From a virus, in the IMG/VR virus record IMGVR_UViG_3300046167_000611, positions 1 through 29,793 of that record: a DNA stretch of 29,793 nucleotides; one strand, written 5' to 3'. The notes below the pieces were generated by a model. That model was not told the DNA's origin. It did not search any database and saw only the letters and a program-made list of their open reading frames with translations. The position numbers and the translations under genes were made by a program. Positions 12,493 through 27,831 of the stretch are shown here, one piece after another. Position 1 is the stretch's first letter, and every line of letters starts with the position of its first letter.

Positions 12493-12508
12493 ATACCCTG
12501 TAAAAAAG

Positions 12509-12552
12509 TTTAAGAATTATTTGTATAGTTTAAAATTAGTTTGTAGTTTAGC
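12509..12552 (+). promoter_or_regulatory. promoter/operator-like element, copy 1
   Basis: A 44-bp stretch that matches 27902-27945 at about 37 of 44 positions. Both contain TTTG, ATAGTTTAAAAT, TTTGTAGTTTAGC in the same order and spacing, with repeated TAGTTT words, and both end 15-19 bp before an ATG. Copy 1 precedes the tiny-ORF cassette, copy 2 the early operon. Shared promoter plus operator is the simplest reading. Confidence 0.6.
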
Positions 12553-12571
12553 CAAACAAATAATAAACATT

Positions 12572-12688
12572 ATGAAACGAAAACTAGAAAACTTTATATT
12601 CGATACAATAATATACGTGGCGGCTTTTGGCTTAGTATGTACATTTTGCCAACTATGCGCGCACGCTGACAAATGGGTAGGGCTATGA
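12572..12688 (+). CDS. tiny Cys-rich hydrophobic protein
   Basis: A 38-residue ORF, first gene after the repeated promoter-like element. It has a basic N-terminus, a hydrophobic middle (FDTIIYVAAFGLVCTF) and three cysteines close together (CTFCQLC). It overlaps the next ORF (ATGA). Possible membrane peptide; function unknown. Confidence rests on the coupled series of four ORFs. Confidence 0.5.
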   Translation: MKRKLENFIFDTIIYVAAFGLVCTFCQLCAHADKWVGL

Positions 12689-12765
12689 AAGATTTAAAAT
12701 TATTTATAGTAGTTATAATGACACTGACATTTTTAATATGGTCTAAAAGTTATTTAGGAATATGA
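12685..12765 (+). CDS. tiny single-span membrane protein
   Basis: A 26-residue ORF coupled by ATGA overlaps on both sides. MKDLK is followed by an uninterrupted hydrophobic stretch (LFIVVIMTLTFLIW) and a basic end, a minimal transmembrane peptide. Function unknown. Confidence 0.4.
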   Translation: MKDLKLFIVVIMTLTFLIWSKSYLGI

Positions 12766-12899
12766 AATATTTAAAACCAATACTAGGCTGGGGTTTATTA
12801 GCGCTGGGACTGCGCGACCTAGCTGTATACGACGATATTGTAGGTACTTTTTTTATGTTTTTATTAGGAATAAGCGTATTATGTTATGACAAAAAATAG
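12762..12899 (+). CDS. small two-span membrane protein
   Basis: A 45-residue ORF overlapping the previous one (ATGA). Two hydrophobic segments (PILGWGLLALGL and VGTFFMFLLGISVLCY) are separated by a short acidic loop (RDLAVYDD), as in a helical hairpin. It could be a membrane-acting accessory protein such as an antiholin or superinfection-exclusion factor; this is only suggested by topology and cassette context. Confidence 0.45.
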   Translation: MKYLKPILGWGLLALGLRDLAVYDDIVGTFFMFLLGISVLCYDKK

Positions 12900-13032
12900 T
12901 ATACTACAGGAATTTAAAAACCTGGTGGACCAGGATAGTTTTAATAAGCTGCCGACGACCCAGAAAATACTGGTAATAAAAAAGCTTACAGAAGCTAGCA
13001 ACGTAATGCGCCACTACACTGGCGCTAAATAG
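12886..13032 (+). CDS. small helical protein
   Basis: A 48-residue soluble-looking ORF that overlaps the previous gene by 14 bp and is the last before a terminator. Sequence is helical and mixed-charge (ILQEFKNLVDQDSFNKL, TQKILVIKKLTEASNVM). No recognised family. Confidence 0.45.
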   Translation: MTKNSILQEFKNLVDQDSFNKLPTTQKILVIKKLTEASNVMRHYTGAK

Positions 13033-13073
13033 TGTAGATTTATTCATTTTTATTTTTATAGATTGTTAATAAG

Positions 13074-13100
13074 CCGTCCTTTATAGGGCGGTTTTTTTTT
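13074..13100 (+). terminator. rho-independent terminator
   Basis: CCGTCC (13074-13079), six-base loop, GGGCGG (13086-13091) and nine T residues. One G-U pair in the stem. Closes the tiny-ORF cassette. Confidence 0.85.
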
Positions 13101-13129
13101 GTAGCTTAGTGTAAGCAACTTAAAACAAA

Positions 13130-13501
13130 GTGGACCGAAACCAGCTAGGCTGTTTAGCAGAATATAAATTTAGCGTAAAAGCTATACAGGAAGGATTTAA
13201 TGTATCTATGCCTTTGCTAGATAGTAGCCCTTACGACTGTATTATAGAACGCGATTTAAAGCTATATAAGATACAAGTAAAGAACGTAAGCGCCGAACGT
13301 AAGTTTAACCGCGATAGCATACACGTAGTGCTAAGGCGTACTACAGACTTCTACACAAAAGACGAAGTAGATTTTTTCGCTATCTACTTTACAGTACTAG
13401 ACGGCTTTTTTATTATACCTAATTATCAACAAAGAAGCGTAAGGTTATCAATGCAAGGGAAGTATAAAGACAATTTTAATAACTTTGCTTTAATCATTTA
13501 A
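13130..13501 (+). CDS. orphan PD-(D/E)XK endonuclease
   Basis: A 123-residue protein with a GTG start (no ATG is available in frame). It has the pattern of small PD-(D/E)XK endonucleases: LGCLAEYKFSVKAIQEGFNV (helix with the conserved Glu), SSPYDCIIERD (catalytic Asp) and LYKIQVKNVS (Q-x-K). Its C-terminal half has strands and a helix (DEVDFFAIYFTVLDGFFII). Relatives include stand-alone and intron-linked endonucleases. It sits alone between two terminators, separating the capsid from the head-tail connector genes, which is typical of a mobile or moron-type gene. Confidence 0.7.
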   Translation: MDRNQLGCLAEYKFSVKAIQEGFNVSMPLLDSSPYDCIIERDLKLYKIQVKNVSAERKFNRDSIHVVLRRTTDFYTKDEVDFFAIYFTVLDGFFIIPNYQQRSVRLSMQGKYKDNFNNFALII

Positions 13502-13532
13502 GATTTTTCTGTTTTTTCATTTGTTTAATAGG

Positions 13533-13566
13533 AAAGCGCTGCTGTTAAAAGTGGCGCTTTTTTTTT
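13533..13566 (+). terminator. rho-independent terminator
   Basis: Stem AAAGCGC (13533-13539) with GCGCTTT (13554-13560) followed by T residues to 13566. Isolates the endonuclease gene from the connector operon. Confidence 0.85.
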
Positions 13567-13568
13567 CG

Positions 13569-13576
13569 TATTTTTA
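13569..13576 (+). promoter_or_regulatory. possible promoter box (TATTTTTA) before connector operon
   Basis: TATTTTTACAG directly after the terminator and 16 bp before the ATG at 13593. It resembles TAATTTTACAG at 23261 before the tape measure gene. Weak match to TAnnTTTG. Confidence 0.3.
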
Positions 13577-13592
13577 CAGAAATTATTTTAAG

Positions 13593-14102
13593 ATGCGTCA
13601 AATAAAAATTAACAGCACTACAGGTAACGAAATACTAACTACTAGCGACGTTAAAAACTACGTTAGAATAGACACTAGCGCCGACGATAGTTTAATTACT
13701 AGAATGATAACCCAGGCGCGTATATGGTGCGAAAACTATATAAGCCGCGATATAGTAGCAAAGAACAGAACGTACTACCTAAGCCAAACAGAAGCGCTAA
13801 TAGATATACCCTTTGGTCCTATAGCTAGCATAAGTACAGTAACTGCTGAAGGTAATACAGCTGCACATACTGTTAAAGGGCTAGATAACGAGCGTATAGA
13901 ACTAGACGGCGGTAGCGCTAAAGACGTTAAAATAACTTACGTAACTGCTGGGCTAAGCGACGACCTTATAAAGAACGCTATGCTACAATTTATAAGCACG
14001 CTATACGATAACCGTAACGACTTTGAAGTAGGTGTAACATTAAATAAAATACCAACAGAAACTAAGGCGCTTTTAACTAGCTATAAAACAATGTTTGTAT
14101 AA
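13593..14102 (+). CDS. head-tail connector (gp6-like)
   Basis: A 169-residue protein. The frame is open further upstream through the terminator, but the ATG at 13593 just after a promoter-like box and terminator is the sensible start. N-terminal TTSDVKNYVRIDTSADDSLI, then a helix TRMITQARIWCENYISRDIV and the strand PFGPIASISTV are the hallmarks of the HK97 gp6/phiSPP1 gp15-like DNA-packaging connector. These proteins form a ring below the portal. It ends in TAATG overlap with the joining protein. Confidence 0.85.
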   Translation: MRQIKINSTTGNEILTTSDVKNYVRIDTSADDSLITRMITQARIWCENYISRDIVAKNRTYYLSQTEALIDIPFGPIASISTVTAEGNTAAHTVKGLDNERIELDGGSAKDVKITYVTAGLSDDLIKNAMLQFISTLYDNRNDFEVGVTLNKIPTETKALLTSYKTMFV

Positions 14103-14428
14103 TGGACGCTGGCAAACTAGATACACAAATAGCCGTAGTAAGGCTAACTAAAACAGCCGACCAGTTTGGTGGCTTTACTTCTACAGAAGCTACTGTAGCT
14201 ACTTATTGGGCTAACCTAACGTATAAAGACGGTAGTATAAAAAGTGAAAACGGACAGCGCCAACACTTTGTAGGAATAGAACTAGTAATGCGTAAAAACA
14301 CAGCGGACGAAATACAGGACCAGGACCTACTACAAATAGAAGGCGCTGGACCTAAGTACAGAATTAACAGTATAGTAGAAACTGAACAAGACTATTACAC
14401 TAAGATAACCGCAACAAAAGTTGACTAA
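14102..14428 (+). CDS. head-tail joining / head closure protein
   Basis: A 108-residue protein of the head-tail joining family (SPP1 gp16-like). It begins LDTQIAVVRLTKTADQFGGF and has the expected FGGFTSTEATVATYWANLTY, an LVMRKNTADEI strand and GPKYRINSIVE near the C-terminus, which together give the small beta-barrel of these proteins. It is the usual partner of the upstream connector and upstream of the gp10-like protein. Confidence 0.85.
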   Translation: MDAGKLDTQIAVVRLTKTADQFGGFTSTEATVATYWANLTYKDGSIKSENGQRQHFVGIELVMRKNTADEIQDQDLLQIEGAGPKYRINSIVETEQDYYTKITATKVD

Positions 14429-14450
14429 TGAACGCTACCAAAATTAAGTA

Positions 14451-14903
14451 ATGAACGCTAAGATAAACCCACAGGACCTAGCTATATTAGATAAAAAGCT
14501 AAAGCAGCTTAAAAGGTTTTCGCGCCAGGAACTTAGTAACGAAGTAGGTAAAACTGCTAGCGACATAGTAAAGCGTAGTACTAAACGTATTGACGCTGGT
14601 TTATTTAAAATGCCTACAGGAAAACTAAAACAGTCTGTATATATGGCTAAAAAAGGTAACACCGCAGAAGTAGGTTATAACAAAAAGTACGCGCCTTATC
14701 AAGAGTTTGGAACCGGTGGGTTAGTAGATACAAAGCACGCGCGCGCGCTAGGCTTTAGTGCTAGTGAAATAAAACAACTATTCAAAGGCAAAGGAATACG
14801 CGAAGTAAATATAGAACCTAAGCCCTTCTTTTTTCCTAGCGTACGCGAAGCGTTAAAAGCGTTAATGTTTAGACTAGACGACAAACTAAAAAAATATATA
14901 TGA
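14451..14903 (+). CDS. HK97 gp10-like tail/neck protein
   Basis: A 150-residue basic protein. The KTASDIVKRSTKRIDAG helix, TGKLKQSVYMAKKGNTAEVG, KKYAPYQEFGTGG and IEPKPFFFPSVREALKAL segments match the HK97 gp10 family, which acts at the head-tail interface. Just upstream (14428-14450) is a 7-codon decoy ORF that begins with the same ATGAACGCTA as the real gene. Its stop overlaps the next start by 4 bp. Confidence 0.85.
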   Translation: MNAKINPQDLAILDKKLKQLKRFSRQELSNEVGKTASDIVKRSTKRIDAGLFKMPTGKLKQSVYMAKKGNTAEVGYNKKYAPYQEFGTGGLVDTKHARALGFSASEIKQLFKGKGIREVNIEPKPFFFPSVREALKALMFRLDDKLKKYI

Positions 14904-15499
14904 AAGAGGTAATACATAGAGTACGTAAAGCTATTATTGATAAACTTAATGGTTCGCCTAATGTTACAAACTTGACGGAATTTAAAAAAAGAGTTGAAAA
15001 TACTGGCGGAACTTTGGAGTCGTTTATTTGTTTGTCTAACCAATTAACACCTATACAAGTATATGACCAAATAAAATTAAGAGATACATATATACCGATT
15101 TATAATAGAATACCTAGTAACGCTACATACCCTTTTGTACGCGTATACAGCGTTTCTAACGACGAAGTAGACCAAAACCGTACTAGTTATATAACAGAAA
15201 CTATAACGCGCTTAGAAGTTATTACACGCTTTTCTAGCGATAGTGGCGGCGAACTAGACAGTAACTTAATAACAGACGAAATACTAAAAAAAGTACGAAC
15301 TAGAAGCGACGACTATATAGACTTAGAAGCAGAAGGTTTTAAAGTATTTACTAGTACTGTAGCTGGTATAAACTATTTAACAGAAGACAGCGACGACTTT
15401 ACATACTTTAGAACTATTATAGAACTTAGTAACCGTATAGAACAAATATCGCCTACAGGTGGACTACAGGCAGAACTACAAAGCGAATTACAAACATAA
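14900..15499 (+). CDS. tail completion/terminator-like protein with internal inserted module
   Basis: A 199-residue protein in the position of the tail terminator. The framework is recognisable: N-terminal helix HRVRKAIIDKLNG, then IPIYNRIPSNATYPFVRVYS, then TETITRLEVITRF and long acidic segments and a C-terminal RTIIELSNRI, as in DUF3168-like tail completion proteins. Residues ~19-65 interrupt this framework between the helix and the first strand. They contain FKKRVENTGGTLESFIC, a motif that also occurs in two other virion proteins here. The inserted stretch uses more ATT, AAT, GTT and TTG codons than the rest of the gene. The C-terminus has a repeated AELQ/SELQ. Confidence 0.7.
   Translation: MKEVIHRVRKAIIDKLNGSPNVTNLTEFKKRVENTGGTLESFICLSNQLTPIQVYDQIKLRDTYIPIYNRIPSNATYPFVRVYSVSNDEVDQNRTSYITETITRLEVITRFSSDSGGELDSNLITDEILKKVRTRSDDYIDLEAEGFKVFTSTVAGINYLTEDSDDFTYFRTIIELSNRIEQISPTGGLQAELQSELQT
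14981..15031 (+). other. GG(T/I)xE(S/A) module, copy A
   Basis: Codes for residues 28-44 of the tail completion protein, FKKRVENTGGTLESFIC. Core of a ~45-residue segment that breaks an otherwise normal protein. Same pattern as copies B and C. Confidence 0.65.
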
Positions 15500-15509
15500 A
15501 TACAGCAAT

Positions 15510-16103
15510 ATGGCTAAAATTACTTTTACAGATAAAACCGATAACAGCACTAGCGCACTAGCAGAAATATATAAAGTAACTGCTGCTGACGTGAACGAAA
15601 TAAAAACTAGCGTAAACGCCTTATACGATACCTTAGGCGGTTTTGCTTTTTATGAAGACACCGCTACTACAGCTACACCTATTAACCTAACTACAGATAC
15701 TTGGACAGACCTAACAAATAATAAAGCTGGAAGCGGTACGCTAACTACACATAAACCTAGCTATGTTACTGGCGACCTTTGGGACAGCGCTACTAATACT
15801 ATAGACCTAGGCGAACTACCAGTAGGAACTGTAGTACTAGTACGTAACGACTACGACATAACTACAGGCGCCGCTAATACTAGAATGGATAGCCGTTTGT
15901 ATTTCCCAGACACTACTAAAAGCGTAGAATTTTCGCACGATACAATATCTAGTAGCGGTACAGAAGTAAGGTATAGTAGAACTACTCAATTTTTTGTAAC
16001 CGACGCTATAAAAACTACAGGGGTTAAAATACAAGTTAAAGTAGATAAGAATAACGCTACAGCTAGAGTAGAAGACTTCCAAATAACTATACTAAGTTTT
16101 TAA
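15510..16103 (+). CDS. beta-rich virion protein
   Basis: The frame is open from 15459, but the ATG at 15510 follows the stop of the previous gene closely and gives 197 residues. An N-terminal helical segment (AADVNEIKTSVNALYDTLGG) precedes a beta-rich domain (INLTTDTWTDLTNN, LPVGTVVLVRNDYDI, MDSRLYFPDTTKSVEF, GVKIQVKVDKNNATARVEDF). This resembles trimeric jelly-roll head domains of virion decoration or spike proteins with a short coiled-coil base. Located between tail completion and lysis genes. Structural role is inferred, not demonstrated. Confidence 0.55.
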   Translation: MAKITFTDKTDNSTSALAEIYKVTAADVNEIKTSVNALYDTLGGFAFYEDTATTATPINLTTDTWTDLTNNKAGSGTLTTHKPSYVTGDLWDSATNTIDLGELPVGTVVLVRNDYDITTGAANTRMDSRLYFPDTTKSVEFSHDTISSSGTEVRYSRTTQFFVTDAIKTTGVKIQVKVDKNNATARVEDFQITILSF

Positions 16104-16109
16104 TTTTTT

Positions 16110-16117
16110 TATCTTTG
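16110..16117 (+). promoter_or_regulatory. putative promoter -7 box (TATCTTTG) before lysis genes
   Basis: TATCTTTG is a full match to TAnnTTTG and lies 4 bp before the ATG at 16122, the same short spacing as at 4893-4905. A leaderless or near-leaderless transcript is implied. Confidence 0.55.
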
Positions 16118-16121
16118 CACA

Positions 16122-16280
16122 ATGGAAGTACAAGACTTTAAACTTTACGCTATGAATTTAGGCGCTTTTGCCCTATCATTAACAGAACTAGAACTGCTTT
16201 TAAAAATCGCACTTTTACTAACCACTATAGGCTACACCGTTTATAAATGGCACGAACTGTACAAGCGTAATAAGAAATAA
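16122..16280 (+). CDS. small membrane protein, possible holin/antiholin
   Basis: A 52-residue protein immediately upstream of the endolysin (its stop abuts the next ATG). It has an acidic N-terminal helix, one hydrophobic segment (LLLKIALLLTTIGYTVY) and a basic C-terminus (KWHELYKRNKK), so it should be a single-span protein with a positive cytoplasmic tail. Position and topology suggest a lysis role. A second holin candidate follows the endolysin, so this one may be an antiholin or pinholin. No family recognised. Confidence 0.6.
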   Translation: MEVQDFKLYAMNLGAFALSLTELELLLKIALLLTTIGYTVYKWHELYKRNKK

Positions 16281-16640
16281 ATGAAGTACTTTACTATAGC
16301 CGAATTTGACAGCCCAGACGAACCAGGCAGCGGTGTAAATATGCACCAGGACTTACTAGAACTACTAGACGAAATGCGCACTATTTACGGTAAACCTATT
16401 GCTATTACAAGCGGCTATAGAACTAAAGAACATAACGCAAGCCTAGGCAAAAACGCGTCTAAAAACAGCAGCCACCTAAAAGGTTTAGCTGTAGATATAG
16501 GAATAGAAAACAGTAACCAACGCTACGAAATAATACGTATAGCTATGCTTTTAGGAATTAAGCGTATAGGAACTGGCAAAGGTTTTGTACATATTGACAT
16601 AGACGGCGACAAAGCGCAAAATGTAAACTGGGTATACTAA
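16281..16640 (+). CDS. peptidoglycan peptidase, M15 family endolysin
   Basis: A 119-residue single-domain enzyme. The zinc-binding pattern of M15A peptidases is visible: SGYRTKEHNASLG, SSHLKGLAVDIGI (H and D ligands) and GKGFVHIDID (third His). It would cleave the D-Ala-containing cross-link or stem peptide of host peptidoglycan. No signal peptide, so export through a holin-made lesion is expected. Flanked by membrane proteins at 16122 and 16640. Confidence 0.92.
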   Translation: MKYFTIAEFDSPDEPGSGVNMHQDLLELLDEMRTIYGKPIAITSGYRTKEHNASLGKNASKNSSHLKGLAVDIGIENSNQRYEIIRIAMLLGIKRIGTGKGFVHIDIDGDKAQNVNWVY

Positions 16641-17026
16641 TGAAGAAACTACTAGCTAAACTTTTAGGACTTAATAGCGGCGGCGATAGCGCCTTAGGTA
16701 GTTTTGCTAAAGACCTACGCGAAGCTATAAAGGGCAAAGAAATAGACCCAGCAAAAGCACTAGAACTAATAAAGGTACAGAACGAAGTAAACAAAATAGA
16801 AGCCCAGCACCGTAGTATATTTGTAGCTGGCTGGCGACCTTTTATAGGCTGGGTTTGTGGTGTAGCTTTATTATACAACTTTATACTACGAGATATTATA
16901 GCCTGGGTTTGCCCAGAACAAATACCACCAGCTTTACAAATGGACCACTTAATAACCATACTACTAGGAATGTTAGGGCTAGGTGGACTTCGCACCTACG
17001 AAAAACTAAAAGACAAAACTAAGTAA
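16640..17026 (+). CDS. three-TM holin-like protein
   Basis: A 128-residue protein. A soluble helical N-terminus with IKVQNEVNKIEAQHRS leads to VAGWRPFIGWVCGVALLY, then NFILRDIIAWVC and a last hydrophobic segment LITILLGMLGLGGLRTYEKL. These are the features of the 3TM holin family (GWRPFIGW and GLGGLRTYEK motifs). Coupled to the endolysin gene by a TAATG overlap and to the following basic gene in the same way. Confidence 0.88.
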   Translation: MKKLLAKLLGLNSGGDSALGSFAKDLREAIKGKEIDPAKALELIKVQNEVNKIEAQHRSIFVAGWRPFIGWVCGVALLYNFILRDIIAWVCPEQIPPALQMDHLITILLGMLGLGGLRTYEKLKDKTK

Positions 17027-17157
17027 TGGCTAAACTACCGCAGTTTATATATAGAAGTAACAGTAAAAAAAAGCGCCCAGGAAAACATAGTAAGAACGCA
17101 AGCCCAGGGCAAAAGGGCTATAAAAAAGCTAGACGCGGTCAAGGTAAACGCCGTTAG
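17026..17157 (+). CDS. 43-residue highly basic protein
   Basis: Starts at the TAATG overlap with the holin gene. About 17 of 43 residues are Lys or Arg, with Gly, Ser, Pro and no acidic residue (NSKKKRPGKHSKN, GYKKARRGQGKRR). It should be disordered and bind nucleic acid or an acidic surface. Possible roles include DNA condensation in the head, or an interaction with the cell surface or peptidoglycan during lysis. No family assigned. Confidence 0.6.
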   Translation: MAKLPQFIYRSNSKKKRPGKHSKNASPGQKGYKKARRGQGKRR

Positions 17158-17166
17158 AATTTTTTG

Positions 17167-17174
17167 TAAATTTG
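17167..17174 (+). promoter_or_regulatory. putative late promoter box (TAAATTTG) before fibre genes
   Basis: TAAATTTG, 15 bp before the ATG at 17190. The 15-mer GTAAATTTGTAAAAA is identical to that at 6426-6440 before the portal gene. Confidence 0.55.
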
Positions 17175-17189
17175 TAAAAATTACTATAA

Positions 17190-18498
17190 ATGGCTTTAAA
17201 AGATAATGCAAGCCTGGCGTTAATACCAGTAGCTTATAAAGAAGACAAAGTATATTGTGCTATTCCAAACGACGCAGACGGCGATTTTGATTTTACAAGA
17301 GGTTCAAATGGAACACGAGTAAACAAAGGCGGTTTAATCGAAACAATGCCAACTAATACACCACGCCTTAATTATAATATATTAGACGGTGTTGTACAGG
17401 GTTGCCCTACGCTATTGTTAGAACCGCCTAAAATCAATATATACACATATAGCGAAGATTTAAGTCAAGGCACTACACTAGCCAACACAACAGTAGATGC
17501 AGATAGTATTACATCTCCTAGCGGTGCTTTAACAGGAAATAAGCTAACACAAACAAGCGGTGCATTAACAAGAAAAAATTTAGGTGTTATAAGCGGTGCT
17601 TATGCTTGGTCATTCTTTGCTAAAAAAGGAGATTTAAGATATTTAAACGCAAGAAGTTTATTTGTGCTTAATGGTACTACTCCTGCAAATGGTAATACTA
17701 TTATTGACCTTGATACAAATACAATAGCATACAAAGGTACAAATGTAACAAGTGCATCAATACAACAATACCCTAATGATTGGGTTAAGGTTGAAATAGT
17801 AGCAACAGACAACGCGACAGGAAGTGGCGATTTTGTAGATTTCTTTTTTACTGATAATGCAACAAGCACCCAATCAACAGGTGTAGCGGGTAATGGTTAT
17901 ATATGGGGTGTACAGTTTGAAAGCGGTAATTATGGAACTTCCTATATTCCTAATTTAACCACAGGCAGCACTTCACGTTCAACAGATGCAGCCAGTGGCG
18001 CAGGAACGAGTGCAACCTTTAACGATAGTGAAGGGGTTTTGTATGCTAATATAAGTGCTTTAGCTGATGATGGTACTTATTCAATAATTTCTTTAAGTGA
18101 TAATTCAAGTAATAATTTTATTATTATCGGTTATAAAGACACTACTAATAGATTGTTTTGTGATGCCATAATAGGTGGTACACGTTTTGTCAGTAATCCA
18201 ACAACGATTGTAAACCAAGAACAATTTAATAAAATATGTCTAAAATATAAAAGTGGAGATACTGATATTTATTTTAATGGTTTTAAAATCCTTTCATCTT
18301 CGACTACATTTACACATTCAGGAAATCCAATATCTGAATTAGAATTTAGATATTTTGACAATAACTTACCTTTCTACGGAAAAACAAAAGAAGTAATGAC
18401 TTTTAACGAAGCATTATCAGACAGCAGAATTAGAAGCACTTACAAGTTACAGTAGCTTTAACGATATGGCAACAGAACAACTTTATACAATAGAATAA
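17190..18498 (+). CDS. fibre/lectin-like protein 1 (frameshift near 18426)
   Basis: First of three paralogues. N-terminus has FDFTRGSNGTRVNKGGLIE and LLLEPP, the attachment-like part. The middle is a beta-sandwich domain with GYIWGVQFESGNYGTSYIPN. The C-terminal part (FNDSEGVLYANISALADDGT onward, ending FYGKTKEVMTFNEALSDS) is a concanavalin/LamG-like domain expected to bind glycans. As given, the frame stops at 18455. Removing one base near 18426 restores ELEALTSY, found in both paralogues, and a stop at 18496-18498 overlapping the next ATG. Codon use (GAT, ATT, TCA, GGA, AAT frequent) is clearly unlike the flanking phage genes. Likely receptor-binding tail or side fibre. Confidence 0.75.
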
Positions 18499-19766
18499 TG
18501 GCAAAGACATTCAACTACGGAGCGGGTATATGGGCAACCAAGACAGGTTCGTCTATGGCTTATAACGACCAAAACGATAACTATAAACCGACACCTTTCA
18601 GCGTAACAAGGGACAGTATTGCCACAAGGGTAAACAAACAAGGGTTAATAGAAGTCGTAGGAAAGGATAAATTAAGAATAGACTATACAGATTCTGATAA
18701 AGGTGTAGCGTTGTTAGAGCCGCAGAGGACTAATTTAGTTACTTATAGTGAGGATTTTAATGATAGTATTTGGGGTAAACTTGATGCTTCGACAGTAAGT
18801 AATTCTGAATTAACATCACCACAAGGAGATATTGGAATTCAAGAGTTAAGGGAAAATAGCGATATTGATGACCATCTTTTAAAATCTAATCCTACATTTT
18901 CTTTTACTAATTGTTCCTTTAGTGTATTTGCTAAATACAAAGGCAACAACAGAAATATAAAACTTGCACTTGGTACGGGTAGATACGCTTCTTTTAATTT
19001 ACAAGATGGATATACTTTTGATGTTCAACCTAATGCTACTGCTGAAATAATAGAATTATCTAATGGTTGGTATAGATGTATTCTTAATGGAAACATATCT
19101 TCGTCTAAAATAAATATAATCTTATTAAACGATACAACAGAGGTTTATCAAGGTGATGGTACAAGTGGTGTATATATATGGGGAGCGCAACTCCAAGAAG
19201 GTGCATACGCCACAAGTTACATTCCCACTTCAGGTTCAACCGTTACAAGAGCAGCAGACGCAGCTAACGGAGCAGGAAACGAGCAAGTATTTAATGACAG
19301 CGAAGGAGTGTTGTTTGCTGATATTGCAGCACTTGCTGATGATGGAACAAGTCGTAGAATTGCTGTATCTGATGAAAGTTATAGTAATAGAGCTATGATA
19401 GAGTTAGACGAAACTTCAAACAAACTTAATTATTTTGTATTTAGTGGTGGTGTTAATCAAAATATAAATGTAGATTTTATTTTATCAAATTCTACATTAT
19501 ATAATAAAATAGCAGCAAAATACAAAGTAAATGATTTTGCATTATGGGTTAATGGTTTTGAGGTTGATTTTTCAACAAGTGGAAACACACCAACAGGATT
19601 AGATGAATTAGCTTTTGATGATGGTGGTAATACATCAAAATTCTACGGAAAAGCAAAAGAAGTTGGCTACTACGATACCGCTTTAACAGATGCCGAACTT
19701 GAAGCACTAACAAGCTACACATCATTTACAAATATGGCTAACGAATTAAATTTAACAATTAAGTAA
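18498..19766 (+). CDS. fibre/lectin-like protein 2
   Basis: A 422-residue paralogue of the preceding gene, starting at a TAATG overlap. N-terminal RDSIATRVNKQGLIEVVG and LLEPQRTNLVTYSEDFN are followed by a beta-domain ending IWGAQLQEGAYATSYIPTSG, then FNDSEGVLFADIAALADDGT and a LamG-like domain with KVNDFALWVNGFE, GLDELAFDDG, FYGKAKEV and TDAELEALTSY. The shared end motif shows that copy 1 is frameshifted. Codon use is again host-like. Divergence between copies is concentrated in the lectin-like parts, as expected if they bind different surface sugars. Confidence 0.78.
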   Translation: MAKTFNYGAGIWATKTGSSMAYNDQNDNYKPTPFSVTRDSIATRVNKQGLIEVVGKDKLRIDYTDSDKGVALLEPQRTNLVTYSEDFNDSIWGKLDASTVSNSELTSPQGDIGIQELRENSDIDDHLLKSNPTFSFTNCSFSVFAKYKGNNRNIKLALGTGRYASFNLQDGYTFDVQPNATAEIIELSNGWYRCILNGNISSSKINIILLNDTTEVYQGDGTSGVYIWGAQLQEGAYATSYIPTSGSTVTRAADAANGAGNEQVFNDSEGVLFADIAALADDGTSRRIAVSDESYSNRAMIELDETSNKLNYFVFSGGVNQNINVDFILSNSTLYNKIAAKYKVNDFALWVNGFEVDFSTSGNTPTGLDELAFDDGGNTSKFYGKAKEVGYYDTALTDAELEALTSYTSFTNMANELNLTIK

Positions 19767-19785
19767 AAATCCTTGATTTTAAGAT

Positions 19786-21087
19786 ATGGCAAATACATTT
19801 AAATTTGGAAACGGAGAATGGGCAGTAGGAAAAGAAACTGCTCTTGCCTACAATGACGAGAACAGTAATTTTAAGCCACTACCTTTTACTTTTGACAGGG
19901 CATCAACAGCAACTGTTGTAAACAAAGATGGTTTAATCGAAACAGTAGGCGTAGATGAGCCACGTATTGACTTTCTAAACAACACTAATGGGCATTTGTT
20001 ATTAGAGCCGCAGAGGCAGAATAAATTACCTTACAGTTTAGATTTTGATAATGATACTTTTTTTGATAAGATAAACAGTTCTATCACAAAAGAAAGCGGT
20101 ATAGCACCTGATGGCTCTAATTCTGCATACGAATTAAAAGACACTAATGATACAGGTAATACATCTCACTATTTTAAACAAACAAGTGGATATAAAGCAT
20201 TTATAGATTATAACGCAATAAAGAGTGCATCTGTTTTTGTTAAAGCAGGAACAAAGAAACAAGTGCAAGTTAGATTAGCAAATGCAGCAGGTACTTTCAG
20301 TTATGTTATGGGTAATTTTGATTTAGAAACCGAAACAATTTTAACAGGTGCGTCTGCAAATGCAGAAAATGTTGCTTATGATTTACAGAATTATGGAAAT
20401 GGTTGGTATAGGTGTATTGTAATTGGTTCTTGGACTGAAAGTAATGTTTCACACTCACGCATTGAGGTTTTTACCGCAGACACAAGTTTAACATCTTTAC
20501 CTAATATACATAGCTATCAAGGTAGTGGTACAGGCACTTTGTTTGTATGGGGTGAAATGATTGAAGAAGGAAGCTACGCCACTTCGTATATACCAACATC
20601 AGGAAGTACTGCTACAAGGAGTGCGGAAACTTGTAATAATGCAGGTAACTCAAATGTATTTAATGATAGTGAGGGAGTACTATATTGGGAGTGTTCATCT
20701 TTATATAACGATTTAACAAACAGAATTATATCTGTTTCTCAAGGTAATCAAAACAATACTGTTCAGTTATATTTTGACGCTTCGTCTAATAGAATTAGGG
20801 GTACTGTAAGGGCAGTTGATGGAACTTATCAATGTGTATTAAACTATACTGTTTCAGATACTACTGACTACATAAAAGCTGCTATAAAGTACAAGGCTAA
20901 TGACTTTGCTCTATGGGTAAATGGTGTAGAAAGAGCAACAGACACGAGTGGAAACGCACCAACGGGATTAAGTGAAATTAGTTTTGATAGCGGTTCGGGT
21001 TCTTTAGATTTCTACGGAAACGTAAAAGATTTAAAAGTTTACAACACAGCATTAAGCGATAGCGAATTACAAGCATTAACAAGTTAA
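19786..21087 (+). CDS. fibre/lectin-like protein 3
   Basis: A 433-residue third paralogue. Same order: FDRASTATVVNKDGLIETVG, LLLEPQRQN, a central beta-domain ending LFVWGEMIEEGSYATSYIPT, FNDSEGVLYWECSSLYND and a lectin-like domain with KANDFALWVNGVE, LSEISFDSGSG, FYGNVKDLKVYNTALSDSEL. Ends at ALTS without the C-terminal extension seen in copies 1 and 2. Host-like codon use continues. It lies 19 bp after copy 2. Confidence 0.78.
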   Translation: MANTFKFGNGEWAVGKETALAYNDENSNFKPLPFTFDRASTATVVNKDGLIETVGVDEPRIDFLNNTNGHLLLEPQRQNKLPYSLDFDNDTFFDKINSSITKESGIAPDGSNSAYELKDTNDTGNTSHYFKQTSGYKAFIDYNAIKSASVFVKAGTKKQVQVRLANAAGTFSYVMGNFDLETETILTGASANAENVAYDLQNYGNGWYRCIVIGSWTESNVSHSRIEVFTADTSLTSLPNIHSYQGSGTGTLFVWGEMIEEGSYATSYIPTSGSTATRSAETCNNAGNSNVFNDSEGVLYWECSSLYNDLTNRIISVSQGNQNNTVQLYFDASSNRIRGTVRAVDGTYQCVLNYTVSDTTDYIKAAIKYKANDFALWVNGVERATDTSGNAPTGLSEISFDSGSGSLDFYGNVKDLKVYNTALSDSELQALTS

Positions 21088-21096
21088 TTTAATACA

Positions 21097-21498
21097 ATGA
21101 AATATATATTTAAAAAATATGAATTTGAAAGCCAAGATTTGGCAGAAACAAGAATAGCTGCTTTACCACATACAGAAGATGAGGACGGCAACGAACACCC
21201 TTCGCACAGCCATACGGTTGTTAAGCTAGGAAACGTAGTAGTAGAACAAGGTACTTATGACGAAGAAGGCGAAGAACTAACTGCGCCTGTACTTGCTGAT
21301 AAGTATTCTGTTGATGTACTATGGAAAGCTTCAGAGATTACAGAAGAAACAGAAGCTGCTGTACTTGACGAAGAAGGTAACGTAATTACCCCTGCTGTAA
21401 CAGAGATTGATTATCCTTACGGTTGGTCTTCTAAAGAAATAGAAATAGAAGAAGGTAACGGCGTCCACACTTTTGCAGGTTGGTCTTATAGTAACTGA
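21097..21498 (+). CDS. fibre-associated accessory protein
   Basis: A 133-residue acidic protein 9 bp after the last fibre gene. It has HTEDEDGNEHPSHSHTVVKL and a Tyr/Trp-rich end (YPYGWSSKEIEIEEGNGVHT, FAGWSYSN). The first third has host-like codon use, the remainder the phage-like one, so a composition boundary lies within or near this gene at about 21200. Its place at the end of the fibre block suggests a chaperone or adaptor for the fibres. No family recognised. Confidence 0.6.
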   Translation: MKYIFKKYEFESQDLAETRIAALPHTEDEDGNEHPSHSHTVVKLGNVVVEQGTYDEEGEELTAPVLADKYSVDVLWKASEITEETEAAVLDEEGNVITPAVTEIDYPYGWSSKEIEIEEGNGVHTFAGWSYSN

Positions 21499-21510
21499 AA
21501 ATAACAACTA

Positions 21511-21999
21511 ATGGCTGTTATAAATTCTACAAATTTTTTGCTTTACAAAAGTCAAATAGACCCTATTGTAAGCGCCTTTGTTGCTAGAGTAGGTACAGAC
21601 GGCGGTACAATTGAAGCTATTAACTGCGTACGTGATGCCTTCGAAGACCAAAAACAGCCACTAGGACACAGTACAAACGTAAGTATAAGTCTTAATGTAG
21701 ATATGCCAGAAAGCACCAATAAGCAAAGCCAAGGTTTTAAAGAAGTATTACCAGGTGTTAAAAGCGGTAATATATCTGTAGAAGGTTTGGTAGATTATAC
21801 AGATACTTTAAGCTATGCAGACTATGTAAATATGTTAGTAACGCGCGAAAAAGCAGAATTTTATATGCAAGCTATTGACGATAATTTAATATTTAACGGT
21901 AATGGTTTTATAACTTCTGTAGAAGAAATAGCGCCAGTAGAAGGTGTTACTACTTATAGTATAGAACTAGAACTAACTAATATTATAGAAATAAATTAA
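21511..21999 (+). CDS. tail tube protein paralogue 1 with inserted module
   Basis: A 162-residue protein clearly homologous to the next gene: GHSTNVSISLNVDMPESTNK, GFKEVLPGVKSGNISVEGLV, DYTD, and FNGNGFITSVEEIAP align throughout. These are tail-tube proteins of the TP901-1 type. Relative to paralogue 2 it has about 26 extra residues near the N-terminus between NFLLYKSQ and QKQPLGHS. This extra part contains FVARVGTDGGTIEAINC, the same motif as in the tail completion and tail tip proteins. One paralogue is probably the bulk tube protein and the other a minor or decorated subunit. Confidence 0.75.
   Translation: MAVINSTNFLLYKSQIDPIVSAFVARVGTDGGTIEAINCVRDAFEDQKQPLGHSTNVSISLNVDMPESTNKQSQGFKEVLPGVKSGNISVEGLVDYTDTLSYADYVNMLVTREKAEFYMQAIDDNLIFNGNGFITSVEEIAPVEGVTTYSIELELTNIIEIN
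21577..21627 (+). other. GG(T/I)xE(S/A) module, copy B
   Basis: Codes for residues 23-39 of tail tube paralogue 1, FVARVGTDGGTIEAINC. Absent from paralogue 2, which gives a direct before/after comparison showing about 26 net inserted residues. Confidence 0.7.
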
Positions 22000-22012
22000 A
22001 AAAAATATTACG

Positions 22013-22020
22013 TATATTTG
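22013..22020 (+). promoter_or_regulatory. putative promoter box (TATATTTG) before tail tube gene 2
   Basis: TATATTTG matches TAnnTTTG, followed by TAG and an A-rich leader, 18 bp before the ATG at 22039. Confidence 0.5.
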
Positions 22021-22038
22021 TAGAAAATAAAACGACTT

Positions 22039-22458
22039 ATGGCTAGTACAGTATTTAACGGAACGGATTTACTACTAAAAGTATCGTCTACAGACGGTGC
22101 AGAAGCGAATATAGGACACACTACAAGCTGTACTATATCTTTGTCTAATGATTTACCAGAAGCTACTACTAAAGATAGCGGCGGCTTTCAAGAAGTTATC
22201 GCTGGCGTTATTTCTGGCGAAATTTCTTTTGAAGGTTTAGTAGATTATACAGACAGTCAAAACGCAGCTGAACTAGGCGACTTTTTACTAGCACGTACAA
22301 AACTATTTTTTGAGTTTGGAACTGCCGCTACAGGCGACCAACTATATAGCGGTGCTGGTTTTTTAAGCAGCTTAGAAGTTAGCGCTGAAATGGAAAGCCC
22401 AGTAACTTATAGTGGTTCTATTACTATTACTGGTGCTATTACAGCCACTACAAACTAA
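22039..22458 (+). CDS. major tail (tube) protein, paralogue 2
   Basis: A 139-residue protein. GHTTSCTISLSNDLPEATTK, GGFQEVIAGVISGEISFEGL, VDYTDSQNAAELGDFLLART and SGAGFLSSLEVSAEMESPVT give the tail-tube fold of the TP901-1/major tail protein 2 family. It has its own promoter-like box and a strong terminator directly after it, suiting an abundant structural protein. It is the more likely major tail protein of the pair because it lacks the insertion and is isolated as its own unit before the tail assembly chaperone gene. Confidence 0.82.
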   Translation: MASTVFNGTDLLLKVSSTDGAEANIGHTTSCTISLSNDLPEATTKDSGGFQEVIAGVISGEISFEGLVDYTDSQNAAELGDFLLARTKLFFEFGTAATGDQLYSGAGFLSSLEVSAEMESPVTYSGSITITGAITATTN

Positions 22459-22470
22459 CAACAAACTAAC

Positions 22471-22503
22471 AGCCCTAGCGTAAGGAACTAGGGCTAATTT
22501 TTA
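22471..22503 (+). terminator. rho-independent terminator after tail tube gene
   Basis: AGCCCTAG (22471-22478), nine-base loop, CTAGGGCT (22488-22495), then a T-rich tract. Perfect 8-bp stem. Confidence 0.85.
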
Positions 22504-22509
22504 TTTAAT

Positions 22510-22899
22510 ATGGCAAACAGAAGAAGGGGGTACTACACTTTAAAGCTAGGCGGTAAAAACCGTACACTTCATTTTAGTATGAATTTTTGGGCAAACTTCA
22601 CAGAAGCCCAGGGCGTAACACTAGACCAAATAGGTCAAATTTTTAGCCAAGGTTTAAGCCTTAGCGCTATTCGCGACTTAATATACAGCGCACTACTAGC
22701 AAACGACCAGGAAAATAATAACGAAATAGAATATAATAAGTTTACTGTAGGCGCCTGGTTAGAAGACCTTACAGGCGACCAGCTAAACGACATAGTAGCG
22801 GCGCTTTTAGAAACCAAACTACTAGGTAACGACCTTAATATGGGCGTAAAGCGCAACGTACAAGCTAGTACAAAACAGCAAAAAAAAACAAAGCCCTAA
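22510..22899 (+). CDS. tail assembly chaperone, short form
   Basis: A 129-residue protein between the tube and tape-measure genes, the conserved place of the gpG-like tail assembly chaperone. It has YYTLKLGGKNRTLHFSMNFW, helices with TLDQIGQIFS and AIRDLIYSAL, and the FTVGAWLEDLTGDQLNDIVA segment typical of these proteins, then a basic tail running into a poly-A slip site. It wraps the tape measure before tube polymerisation. The zero frame ends shortly after the slip site at 22897-22899. Confidence 0.82.
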   Translation: MANRRRGYYTLKLGGKNRTLHFSMNFWANFTEAQGVTLDQIGQIFSQGLSLSAIRDLIYSALLANDQENNNEIEYNKFTVGAWLEDLTGDQLNDIVAALLETKLLGNDLNMGVKRNVQASTKQQKKTKP

Positions 22900-23252
22900 C
22901 CTGGGACGACCTACTAGACTATTACATAGGACAAATAGGTATAAACCCTAACGACTTTTGGGCTAATACTTGGAATGAAAACCAGCTGCTAGGCGAAAGC
23001 CACACTATAAATAATTATTTAGACTGGGAACGTACGCGTTATATATCTACTATGTTATATAACTTAAATTGTACTAAGCGCGGTCAAATGATAACGCCAG
23101 ACAAATTACTACCACTACCACAAGACGTATATTTAGAAAAGGGTGTCCCTAAAAGCACTAAAGAAGACTACGATAAGTTTTTAGAAAAAGTAGCAAGGGC
23201 TAAAGCTGGCGGCAGTAAAACTGTAGCAAACTTTAAAAATACTAACGGTTAA
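22510..23252 (+). CDS. tail assembly chaperone, -1 frameshift long form (gpGT-like)
   Basis: Slipping back one base in the nine-A run at 22880-22888 enters a frame that stays open to 23252. The joined product has about 247 residues. The extension begins LTWDDLLDYYIGQIG and has DFWANTWNENQLLGE, the (F)W-x2-T-x2-E pattern common in second tail chaperones, and a basic end. No suitable start codon exists near the beginning of this frame; the first ATG is at 23052. This is the standard arrangement for programmed -1 frameshifting in long-tailed phages, different from the +1 insertions elsewhere in the window. Confidence 0.78.
22880..22888 (+). promoter_or_regulatory. -1 ribosomal frameshift slip site
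   Basis: Nine A residues read as cAA AAA AAA Aca in the zero frame, so the A-AAA-AAA heptamer allows both tRNAs to re-pair after a -1 slip. The stop comes 3 codons later. Only a weak CCC/GGG hairpin is visible downstream. Confidence 0.7.
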
Positions 23253-23260
23253 TTTTTTTG

Positions 23261-23268
23261 TAATTTTA
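23261..23268 (+). promoter_or_regulatory. possible promoter box (TAATTTTA) before tape measure
   Basis: TTTTTTTGTAATTTTACAG, 18 bp before the ATG. Shares the TTTTACAG ending with the site at 13569. Weak match to TAnnTTTG. Confidence 0.3.
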
Positions 23269-23286
23269 CAGCTATAATTCTACACT

Positions 23287-25773
23287 ATGGCAGACCAAAA
23301 ATTAAGGATATTATTAGAAGCTGACAGTAGTAAACTTACTAAAGGCTTAGATAAGGCTGGAAGTAAATTACAGGCTTTTGGCGCTAAAACCCAGGCTGTA
23401 GGTAAAAATTTATCTACTAAATTAACACTACCGTTATCTTTAGCTGGTGGTGCTGCTTTAAAATTAGCTGTAGACTTTGACAAGTCTATGACTAAAATAC
23501 AAAGTTTAGTAGGTGTAGCGGCAGCTGACGTAGATAAAATGGGCGAAACTGCTAAAAAAATGGCTACCGATACTGGTAAAAGCGCCGCAGAAGCAGCAGA
23601 AGCACTATTTTTTATAACGTCCGCTGGACTTAGGGGTAAAGAAGCTACAGACGTTTTAAACGCTTCATTAAAAGCCGCAGCTGTAGGGACTAGGCGAAAC
23701 GGCTACTGTAGCCGACTTAGCTACGTCCGCTATGAACGCATACGGTAGCGCCAACCTAAACGCCGAAGCAGCTACTGACGTTATGGTAAGCGCTGTAAGA
23801 GAAGGTAAATTAGAAGCTTCTGAACTAGCGCAAAGTATGGGTGCTGTACTTCCAGTAGCTTCAAATATGGGTGTACAATTCCACGAAGTAGGCGCTGCTT
23901 TTGCCGCACTATCTAGAACAGGTACTGGCGCCGCAGAAGCCGCTACACAAATTAGAAGTATTTTAACTTCACTACTTAAACCCACAAAACAAGCAGAAGA
24001 CCAACTAAGCGCCTTAGGTTTGTCAAGCGCTGGGCTTAGACAAAGTTTAAAAGAAGACGGACTACTAGCTACTTTAGAAATACTTAAACAAAAATTCGAA
24101 GGTAACGACACAGCCGCCCAGAATGTATTTGGGAATGTGCGTGCGCTGTCTGGTGTAATGGACTTACTAGGCGCTGGTGTAGATAGTACTAGGGCTATTT
24201 TTGACGCTATGAACGATACCCAAGGCGCTACAGCTAAAGCGTTTGCAGCTACTTCTGAAAGCGCAAGTTTTAAACTTACTAAGGGGTTAAATTCTGTTAA
24301 AATAGCACTAACAGAAGTAGGCGCTGAATTACTAGAAAGCCTAGTACCACTATTTGAAGGGTTTACTAAAACTATTATAAATATTACAAAAAAGTTTAAT
24401 GAACTAGACAAAAGCACAAAAAAAATAATTCTAGCTATAGGCGGTATAGCTGCCGTTATTGGTCCTATACTAATAGTAATAGGTAAAATGTCTTTAGGTT
24501 TTGGCGCTTTAATAAAAGCCTTACCACTTGTAGCTAGTGGGTTTAGAGTTTTAACCGCAGGCTATGATAGCTAACCCCTATACTAGCTGTAGCAACTGCA
24601 ATAGCAGCCGTTACTGTAGCAATAGTTCAGTATAAAAAAAGCCAAAAAGAAGCTAATAAAGTAGCACTTGAACAAATGAACGCCGCACAATTAGGCGAAA
24701 AAATAGAAGAACTAGAAAAAAGAAAACAAGCCCTTTATAAACGCGGTTATAAAGACGGACAGCATAGGGTACAATTAGTACAGGACGAAATAGACGTATA
24801 TAAAAAACAAATAGAAGTAGTAAACGAAGCTACTACAGCTAACGAAGAACTAGAAAAACAAAGACTAGCAACATCAAATACACCAGCACCTACAGCCCTA
24901 CCTACAATGGGCGGCGGCGAAACTAAAAAACCTATGGCTGCTGTAAGCACTGTAAGCGCCCTAGGTGCTACAGCTGGTTATACTATAGATACTACCCAGC
25001 AGTTAAATTTAGAAGCTGGAAGTAGTTTACTAGGCGAGATGCAAACGGTAACTACAGACCCTGTAGCTATGTTAGCAGCTAGTGTAGCTAGTAGTACAGA
25101 AGAATTAAAGAGTAGATTAGGAGCTGCAAACGAAGTGCTAAGGGCTAAAGGACTAGAACAGCAAATGATAGCCCAGGAAAACGCCTTAGCTGTTGGTGCT
25201 ATTGTTACTAGTAATTTACAAAATATAGCTATGGGTATTGGTGAAGCTTTAGGCGACGCTATAGCAAACGGCGGTAATTTAGTAGGTGCTTTAGCTAGTA
25301 CTATGCTTACTGGACTAGCAAATATGGCTATACAAATGGGTAAATTAGTTTTGCAAAACGGTATAGCTATAGAAGCTATAAAAGAAGCGTTAACGTCTTT
25401 ACAGGGTCCTTTAGCTATAGCTGCTGGTATAGCTTTAATAGCTATAGGTTCAGCAGTCAAAGCTGGCGCTGCTAACATAGCAAAAGGCAAAGGCAAAGGC
25501 GGCGGCGGTGGCGGTCAAAGCGGACCACGTAGCGGCGCTGTAGCGGCGTTTGCTAATGGCGGTATAGTTAGCGGTCCCACGCTTGGACTAATGGGCGAAT
25601 ATGCAGGCGCTAAGTCTAACCCAGAAGTAATAGCGCCACTAGATAAACTTAAAAATATTATAGGCGGCGGTCAAGCCCAGCAAGTAAACGTAGGTGGCGA
25701 ATTTAGATTAAACGGTCAAGACCTAGTAGTAGCACTTCAGCGCGCTGAAAAACAGCGCGGTAGAATTAAATAA
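23287..25773 (+). CDS. tail tape measure protein (three one-base insertions)
   Basis: Removing one G at 23686-23688, one G at 24560-24561 and one C at 24575-24578 gives a single frame of about 827 residues. The N-terminus (LRILLEADSSKLTKGLDKAG) and the TP901-type core (DFDKSMTKIQSLVGVAAADV, DTGKSAAEAAEALFFITSAG) are typical. Hydrophobic segments near the middle (IILAIGGIAAVIGPILIVIG and the LAVATAIAAVTVAIV region restored by the repair) would be membrane-active. A helical region and a Gly-rich C-terminus with AVAAFANGGIVSGPTLGLMG and SNPEVIAPLDKL complete it. It sets tail length and helps DNA entry. The length predicts a tail of roughly 120 nm by the 1.5 Å per residue rule. Confidence 0.85.
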
Positions 25774-25779
25774 ACAAAT

Positions 25780-27831
25780 ATGGCTTACGGCGTAAAATAT
25801 AGGTTAGACTTTGAAGACCACGAAGGCAACGGTAAAAGACTGGATATTTTAAAAAACAACTATATAGGTAGTATACTGCCGCTAGTAGGTGGCGCAGAAC
25901 CTGTTAAAATAAAATGGGACGGCGACGACGATTTTTATAGTCCTATAATTGGTAGCACCTGTAGTATAAACCTATACCAAACAGACGAAACAAATTACGA
26001 CGACTTTTTTAACGAACCAGAACGAGAATATAAAGTAGAAGTTTATACCTCACAGTCTAAAGCAGATGCTTTTAAAAATAGAATACAATTAGATGGCGGT
26101 ATATCTGAATCCGCAAAATTTATAGACGAAGAATTAACAGAAACCCAAGACAACTATACACTATTTTGGACTGGCTGGCTACTTAGCGACCAGTTTAAAG
26201 AACTAATGGCGCCAAACCCACAAGCTATACAGCTAACAGCTATAGATGGACTAGGCGAACTAGATAACCTTTTTGTAGATAACACTTTTTATAGTATAAA
26301 TACAGGGCTTCAAAGAATTGAAGCTAGCTTATCTGATATATTATGCGCTGCACTAAATAAAACTGGGCTAGGTTTAGACGTTATTATTAACAACGAACTA
26401 AGCGTATACGATATTTTTGGTAATAGGTCTGAATTTTTAACGTATGTAAATAATTTTATAAACGAAAGCGTTTTTTTAAACGACGAATACGAATTTTTTA
26501 ATGTAAAAGAATTTTTAGAAAACGTACTAAAAAGCGTAAACAGCAGGGTATTCCAGGCAAACGGTAAATTTGTAGTAGTAAATAACAGTTTATATAGTGA
26601 ACAAGCTGTAATAGACTACGTTAAAAACTATATAGACGATAACGACGCTGTACCTAGTGGTATAGGCGCACTACGCCAAGCGTATTTAAAAGGCGATATA
26701 GAACAGTTATACTACCAAAGATTTAACAGTAGCGGCACTTTGCAAGGCGACTACTACTACGAAGGTTTAAGAACTATACGTACAGACTTACAGCCACTAG
26801 ACCAAAATTTGACACGCGAAGCTGAACGCGGTTATAAAGCTTTACGATACAAAACAGAACTTGTAAAAGCTAATCTAAGCTATAAAGAAGATGCAGGTTT
26901 TGAATTCCAAAACACAAGCCACTGGACTATAAGTAACGGTAGTTTTGTAACTGACGAAATAGCTTTTAGTGGTGTACGTAGTTTTAAAACTACAGCTACA
27001 AATTTTGGCGCAACACCAACAAGTTTAGCTATTACTGGTAACTATTTATACCCTAGAGATTTAGATTTAAAACTAAAGCTAAGTTATTATTATAGCGCCA
27101 CAGGTTTACAGACTTCTTTAAACTATAATAAATTCTGGTGCCAACTTTACTTTAGTAACGGACCAACATACTATTACGATAGCGCTAATAATAACTGGAC
27201 TACTACAGTAAAATACTTCTTTTTTGAAGACGCGGCTATATCGTCCGCTAACAAATGGATAAGTCAAGACATAAGTATAGCCAAGCTACCAGCGGCAGCT
27301 AGTCAAAGCCAGACTGTAATTTTAAAAATTTACGGTCCACAAAGCTATTTACTAAACTACCAGGGTGTTTATGTAGATAACACTATACTATATTTAGATA
27401 GCCCTAGCACCCAGGCAAATGTAATAACACTAACACAAGACACCACTACAAATGTTATAATAGGCGACTTAGAAGTAGAACGCCCACTAAACGGCTTAGT
27501 ACTAGACTATACAGGGGTTTATGACGTTAGTAATTTCCTTAGTACTTCTACGCCAGTAATACAAACCCAGAAGCAACAGCTAGACGACTTTAGGACTATT
27601 GTAACTAGGTACGAAGGTACAGTATATAACAATGAAACCGCGCCAGTTACGCCTATGGATAAAATACGTATAAACTTTACAAACTTTAGCGAACCAGACA
27701 GCTTAATACTAGACGGTTTAGAATATAGTGTAAAGTCAAATAGGTACAATATAATAGCACATAAACCAAACCAAGACAACCCAGTAGCAGCTACTTCTAC
27801 TAGTAAATTTACAACTGTAATACAAAGTTAA
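25780..27831 (+). CDS. tail tip / baseplate-type protein with inserted module
   Basis: A 683-residue protein directly after the tape measure. The N-terminal third has IKWDGDDDFYSPIIGSTCSI and NYTLFWTGWLLSDQFKELMA with IQLTAIDGLGELDNLFVDN, a beta-rich tail-tip pattern I associate with Bacteroidota phages. Then comes a helical region (LSDILCAALNKTGLGLDV), a domain with SRVFQANGKFVVVNNSLYS and a carbohydrate-binding-like beta-sandwich (about residues 365-550, HWTISNGSFVTDEIAFSGVR). Residues ~90-126 (TSQSKADAFKNRIQLDGGIS) interrupt the link between EYKVEVY and NYTLFWTGW and carry the shared motif. It is probably the hub or adsorption-apparatus protein. Confidence 0.72.
   Translation: MAYGVKYRLDFEDHEGNGKRLDILKNNYIGSILPLVGGAEPVKIKWDGDDDFYSPIIGSTCSINLYQTDETNYDDFFNEPEREYKVEVYTSQSKADAFKNRIQLDGGISESAKFIDEELTETQDNYTLFWTGWLLSDQFKELMAPNPQAIQLTAIDGLGELDNLFVDNTFYSINTGLQRIEASLSDILCAALNKTGLGLDVIINNELSVYDIFGNRSEFLTYVNNFINESVFLNDEYEFFNVKEFLENVLKSVNSRVFQANGKFVVVNNSLYSEQAVIDYVKNYIDDNDAVPSGIGALRQAYLKGDIEQLYYQRFNSSGTLQGDYYYEGLRTIRTDLQPLDQNLTREAERGYKALRYKTELVKANLSYKEDAGFEFQNTSHWTISNGSFVTDEIAFSGVRSFKTTATNFGATPTSLAITGNYLYPRDLDLKLKLSYYYSATGLQTSLNYNKFWCQLYFSNGPTYYYDSANNNWTTTVKYFFFEDAAISSANKWISQDISIAKLPAAASQSQTVILKIYGPQSYLLNYQGVYVDNTILYLDSPSTQANVITLTQDTTTNVIIGDLEVERPLNGLVLDYTGVYDVSNFLSTSTPVIQTQKQQLDDFRTIVTRYEGTVYNNETAPVTPMDKIRINFTNFSEPDSLILDGLEYSVKSNRYNIIAHKPNQDNPVAATSTSKFTTVIQS
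26071..26121 (+). other. GG(T/I)xE(S/A) module, copy C
   Basis: Codes for residues 98-114 of the tail tip protein, FKNRIQLDGGISESAKF. Local codons (TCA, TCC, GAT, AAA) are more host-like than the flanks. The Cys of copies A and B is replaced by Phe. Confidence 0.6.

Follow-up and report, generated by a model that had tools for sequence, protein, structure and literature searches.

A short module, probably a helical hairpin, carried by many different virion proteins of tailed phages

Copies of the module in the window

The window analyzed here is the whole 29,793-nt stretch of viral DNA in IMG/VR record IMGVR_UViG_3300046167_000611. The pattern F-x2-R-[VI]-x3-G-G-[TI]-x-E-[SA] has three matches in its six-frame open reading frames (ORFs), in the tail terminator (copy A), in one of two tail-tube paralogues (copy B) and in the tail hub (copy C), exactly where the first-pass annotation had placed them and nowhere else. 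The pattern count was zero in 2000 residue-shuffled window proteomes. Because this pattern had been drawn post hoc from the three window copies themselves, an external hidden Markov model (HMM), built from 54 nonredundant copies from other contigs with the window and its close relatives left out, was used as the test. Copy B (36.3 bits, E 2e-9) and copy A (22.8 bits, E 3e-5) were recovered by it, and copy C was borderline when taken alone (9.5 bits, E about 0.3-0.5; 0.25 for the whole protein); on 300 shuffled proteomes the top score was 13.3 bits and the second 6.5 bits. Recovery of copy C remained weak until relatives of the hub were used, in which the corresponding position holds one or two clear copies (lowest full-sequence E 9e-12). 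A wider profile that included the window copies detected just copies A, B and C in the window. Profiles link all three copies to one another and to about 97 nonredundant copies elsewhere, which bears out the earlier impression that similar segments occur in other phages, those of Bacteroidota included. The segments had also been described as interrupting otherwise normal proteins. Sequence comparison agrees: natural relatives without the module were found at sites A, B and C, with inserts of 38 aa (A) and 33 aa (B), so the segment is not a constant part of the core fold in any of the host proteins.

The tail terminator gene with copy A (14900-15499, + strand; 199 aa; phrog_176, E 3.6e-06) has an insertion of 38 codons (residues 19-56; 14954-15067, + strand), seen as a clean gap in 26 orthologues of 145-161 aa that show no other gap near the site. 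Within it, the module core FKKRVENTGGTLESFICLSNQL is located at 14975-15058 (+ strand) by the module profile match, the external-only profile giving the 22.8 bits above. L149 and like relatives are 90-93% identical to the window at 12755-14931 and 15104-17288, yet their site A is empty, and a tract-directed search revealed the module at the same tail-terminator site in a distant lineage (L225 and L226). Codons 1-10 and 67-199 of the window gene are 80-98% like the empty-site relatives L149, L145 and L142 and about 47-71% like L225/L226, while codons 11-66 are 75-84% like L225/L226. This sharp codon-binned identity mosaic shows that copy A arrived on a tract of about 168 bp (14930-15097, + strand), imported by homologous recombination from an L225-like distant phage lineage. 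The codons at copy A had been noted as more host-like than the flanks, and the imported tract accounts for this local change in codon usage. Judged by these comparisons, the only traceable transfer of the module is homologous recombination between orthologous genes.

Copy B lies in a tail-tube paralogue (21511-21999, + strand) assigned by PF06199 (E 3.7e-07), phrog_1407 and its structural model, with the module in the beta1-beta2 loop. The insertion comprises 33 codons (residues 16-48; 21556-21654, + strand), which are a gap in the orthologues from L187 and L188 and in the paralogue, and the module profile match spans 21562-21651. The paralogue (22039-22458, + strand; PF06199, E 8.4e-17) lacks the segment by alignment, as the first-pass annotation had seen, and serves as an internal empty site. 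The AlphaFold model of the copy B protein has the fold of a tail tube, matched by solved tubes, with a strand at residues 4-13, helices at 19-27 and 33-47 and a strand at 53-63; pLDDT is about 50 within the module. The structural models have low confidence inside the module, so that topology alone was used, and an alignment that mixed module fragments with the tail tube misaligned the tube and was left out of folding. Copy B probably has its hairpin at the outer face of the tail tube, because in solved tubes the beta1-beta2 loop contacts the sheath (T6SS) or, in lambda, the Ig domain at the exterior (PMC8718954). The tail-tube genes stand in tandem (21511-22458); Cellulophaga phage phi10:1 likewise has two Phage_tail_2 genes (gp084 and gp089).

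The host gene of copy C (25780-27831, + strand) encodes a tail hub or tip protein with weak Foldseek matches to baseplate and tail hub proteins, homologous to a 'structural protein' of Cellulophaga phage phi18:1 and of Salinibacter phages. Its module core AFKNRIQLDGGISESAKFIDEEL (26056-26148, + strand; module profile match) has F in place of a conserved Cys that the nearest relatives keep. Copy number in the hub varies from none in distant relatives to one in the window clade and two in tandem in most close relatives. In the hub model, helices at residues 94-104 and 113-116 lie between strands at 84-91 and 126-134 (module pLDDT 46-69). The host of the window phage is probably a member of Bacteroidota, because among cultured phages relatives of this hub were matched only in those of Cellulophaga, Flavobacterium and Salinibacter.

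Carriers and distribution of the module

A DNA pattern for A-F-x2-R-V-x2-D-G-G-x2-E matched at least 120 viral-contig stretches, while a reordered control of similar content matched 9. Iterated search of the retrieved viral loci gave 232 copies in 183 ORFs. With the module masked, the carriers fell into 44 groups, or 42 after removal of two chance pattern hits (L079 and L090); 42 is an upper count, some groups being true homologues split by short flanks. High DNA identity between some 'different' carriers was traced to such split homologues and not to recent DNA copies. By sequence, up to 42 carrier families unrelated to one another share the module, and they range from neck to tail tip. The carriers that could be assigned are all virion proteins, namely tail terminator, tail tube, hub, head closure (phrog_25 match for L039), LamG and arabinofuranosidase-like proteins and a 'virion structural protein' (phrog_23570); many small carrier ORFs stand outside this assigned set. 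Many of the other carriers are ORFs of 44-111 residues with the module at their end. About one third of the nonredundant copies are C-terminal, one third near the N-terminus and one third internal. In the head closure family, the module occupies one loop in L039 and L109, a different loop in L037 and neither loop in 17 relatives, and the two sites are strong evidence for independent insertion.

In all eight loci of one group (L019, L039, L043, L064, L078, L109, L115 and L122), the module is present in the gene that immediately follows the hub gene. In seven loci the product of this gene is small and has a variable start, and in L122 it is longer; the hubs of L115 and L122 have no module of their own.

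Several minor observations concern the carriers. In L065 (5107-6060, - strand), the module is immediately followed by another short segment, YDADYQAVLDRSTALGYTAPSPAQQTLQNTLVTDLKTAGVW, which is probably helical and may be a further small promiscuous unit. GWG/WWGD motifs precede the module in small carriers of L016, L055 and their relatives (MANSNGWGDGASNNNIGWGQ...), possibly a repeat family of their own. The window has three consecutive LamG-type proteins at 17190-21087, all of the same PHROG families and all without the module, which LamG proteins elsewhere carry; the third has its most significant cultured match in Nonlabens phage P12024S/L.

Cultured carriers include Nonlabens phages P12024S/L, with the module in gp05 and at the C-terminus of gp09 (4.7e-11 and 5.9e-9). 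A divergent module was detected near the N-terminus of tail-region proteins of about 300 aa in Serratia phage BZS1, Pseudomonas phage VW-6B and Acinetobacter phage MD-2021a, and the BZS1 carrier, p28, has been identified in virions by mass spectrometry (PMC7556043). Among 13 cultured phages of Bacteroidota, the module was absent from 12. GTDB contigs scanned with a strict pattern gave only two stretches, both in Proteobacteria (Roseibium and Paracidovorax), which is about the number estimated for chance. For the most part the carriers are uncultured tailed phages that probably infect Bacteroidota.

Conservation of the module

The module measures about 25-35 aa, with the consensus lvsAFkaRVeADGGTvEaesCLtddLkdL and the conserved protein signature R..D-G-G..E...C. 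In the 43 nonredundant copies to which the search pattern has no match, conservation is 95% for R, 95% for D, 93% for the second G, 98% for E and 100% (43/43) for Cys. Cys is present in 49 of the 54 pattern-derived seed copies, with Y, S or F replacing it in a few copies. Outside the module, 29 of the 42 carrier groups are free of Cys, and Cys density is about eightfold higher inside it. A single near-invariant Cys of this kind suggests either contact between molecules or a tightly packed helix-helix core, and the data fit both.

Values of dN/dS within the module (0.27 in the hub, 0.35 in the tube and 0.21 in a large carrier with an N-terminal copy) are somewhat above those of the flanks and point clearly to purifying selection acting on the protein. 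Third codon positions are free at conserved columns, and the module DNA is not conserved. The module thus reads as an old protein domain under selection and not as a recent repeat element.

Possible function and alternative explanations

We consider the module to be a promiscuous helical-hairpin virion domain that serves in interaction, most likely in docking within the virion, and put the probability of this reading at about 0.6. A hairpin of helix, D-G-G turn and helix, carried on virion proteins of tailed phages, would have reached each new loop by illegitimate recombination in the first instance, would face outward from the particle and would act as an interaction module. Docking would join two modules to each other or one module to a conserved partner, perhaps with the near-invariant Cys as a seal, and would attach or stiffen adhesins and small adaptor proteins on the neck, tube and hub. 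It is favored over host adhesion because R, D, G, G, E and C are near-invariant across diverse phages, because LamG and arabinofuranosidase-like carriers have a sugar-binding domain of their own, because the post-hub gene carries the module in 8/8 loci of one group, and because the module is common to neck, tube, hub and adhesins. Against docking, the Cys might be conserved simply as a small residue of the core, and many fragmentary records hold only one copy, for which module-to-module pairing may be impossible. A more specific form, in which the near-invariant Cys and the R, D and E residues tie module-bearing subunits together on neck, tube and hub, possibly by a disulfide, is speculative and rather doubtful; if true, it would offer phages a universal means of mounting accessory proteins or strengthening them.

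Docking is only slightly more likely than direct accessory binding at the host surface. As an account of the module on its own, a hairpin displayed many times that binds host surfaces or environmental polymers weakly and polyvalently is possible, if on balance unlikely. Its presence from neck to tip fits a dispersed binder, its copy number in the hub varies, and it appears dispensable at site A, where relatives about 90-93% identical in the flanks do without it; precedents are the carbohydrate-binding modules (CBMs) dispersed over the neck and the major tail protein of lactococcal 936 phages, for which such binding was shown (PMC6669499), and the phage Ig-like domains, for which it was proposed (PMC8718954). 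However, near-invariant charged residues and Cys across hosts, gammaproteobacterial ones included, are atypical of a receptor-binding surface, and in many carriers a lectin-like domain is already present as a separate unit. A selfish DNA element that spreads for its own sake, like the Rickettsia palindromic elements, would likewise insert in frame in unrelated genes that have empty sites in relatives. Such an element is very improbable, given free third codon positions and no DNA-level conservation. Neither inverted nor direct repeats were seen at A and B, C has a single poor inverted pair, and single-strand folding at the copies is not unusual. Copies from the same genome are no more alike than copies from different genomes (similarity 0.418 within and 0.421 between), all assigned carriers are virion genes, and selection on the module is purifying. 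The proposal of the first-pass annotation that a mobile peptide domain spreads among structural genes therefore holds for the domain, through profile linkage and empty sites, and fails for an autonomous mobile element. The module is short and a simple helix-turn-helix, so a generic amphipathic hairpin might have arisen many times by chance or convergence, but there is little to recommend this account in view of the excess over the reordered control (at least 120 against 9), R, D, G, E and C near-invariant at fixed spacing in copies that were not selected by pattern, and the phage-to-phage transfer directly visible at site A.

The module shows that domain shuffling in virions extends to units of about 30 residues that are missing from annotation libraries, and that one such unit occurs in many phages on adhesins and on head closure, tail terminator, tail tube and hub proteins. 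With the profile, empty sites, cultured carriers and near-invariant residues, the binding partner of a general virion interaction module can be sought, and many small ORFs near tail genes that lack annotation are linked to one another by the module.

Relation to known systems

CBMs are larger folded domains than the module. In lactococcal 936 phages they decorate the neck, the major tail protein and Dit (PMC6669499), one module type being dispersed over neck, tube and tip much as the present module is over head closure, terminator, tube and hub; host binding has been shown for two of those CBMs (PMC6669499), whereas the module is known here from sequences and models. Phage Ig-like domains (Big_1, Big_2, FN3; Fraser et al., 2006, as cited in PMC10684548) are similar in being promiscuous accessory domains on several unrelated virion proteins. 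They occur on the tail tube and other virion proteins, at the exterior, and are sometimes dispensable (PMC8718954). They differ in being beta-sandwiches added as C-terminal domains, while the module is mostly set within loops or ends small proteins and is modeled, at low confidence, as a hairpin of about 25-35 aa with two helices between strands and one near-invariant Cys, and not as an Ig/FN3 sandwich. The Rickettsia palindromic elements also place a short peptide in frame within unrelated proteins (PMC10969869), but they are repeated DNA elements of about 150 bp in metabolic genes (PMC10969869), and the module has neither conserved DNA nor a palindrome and sits in virion genes. Shuffling of fragments among phage proteins was described as domain mosaicism by Smug et al. 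(2023), whose sequence test needed fragments of at least 50 aa (PMC10684548), so that a module of about 30 aa, being below this limit, may have been missed there.

Pfam holds no model of the module: two stray matches were obtained (E 0.017 and 0.03, one member each), and the fragments had no Ig-type match. Sequence search of the PDB with the module gave no significant match. PHROGs gave no domain-level match, its matches being to whole carrier proteins; PHROG 31097 (Nonlabens phage P12024S gp05 and relatives) was matched by 29 of 59 module fragments, gp05 having a copy of the module, and differs in modeling the whole 125-aa carrier protein and not the module as a domain. No description of the module was found in the literature searched, in which subscription journals were incompletely covered. 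The concept of a promiscuous virion domain is already known, and the present unit, with its size, fold and insertion habit, is absent from Pfam, PHROGs (as a domain) and PDB sequences.

Other features of the window

A stretch of about 50 bp after the capsid gene (12503-12552) occurs at another position in L151 (19940-19989, 92%), and the region 12566-12755 is variable in length among relatives. Before the tape measure, the ORFs at 22510-22899 and 23052-23252 may be a frameshift pair of the gpG/gpGT type (region 22510-23252). The tape-measure gene itself is split into three ORFs in the window (23287-25773), by a sequencing error or because the gene is broken, and is a single ORF of 814-830 codons in L166 (98% identical), L001 and L167.
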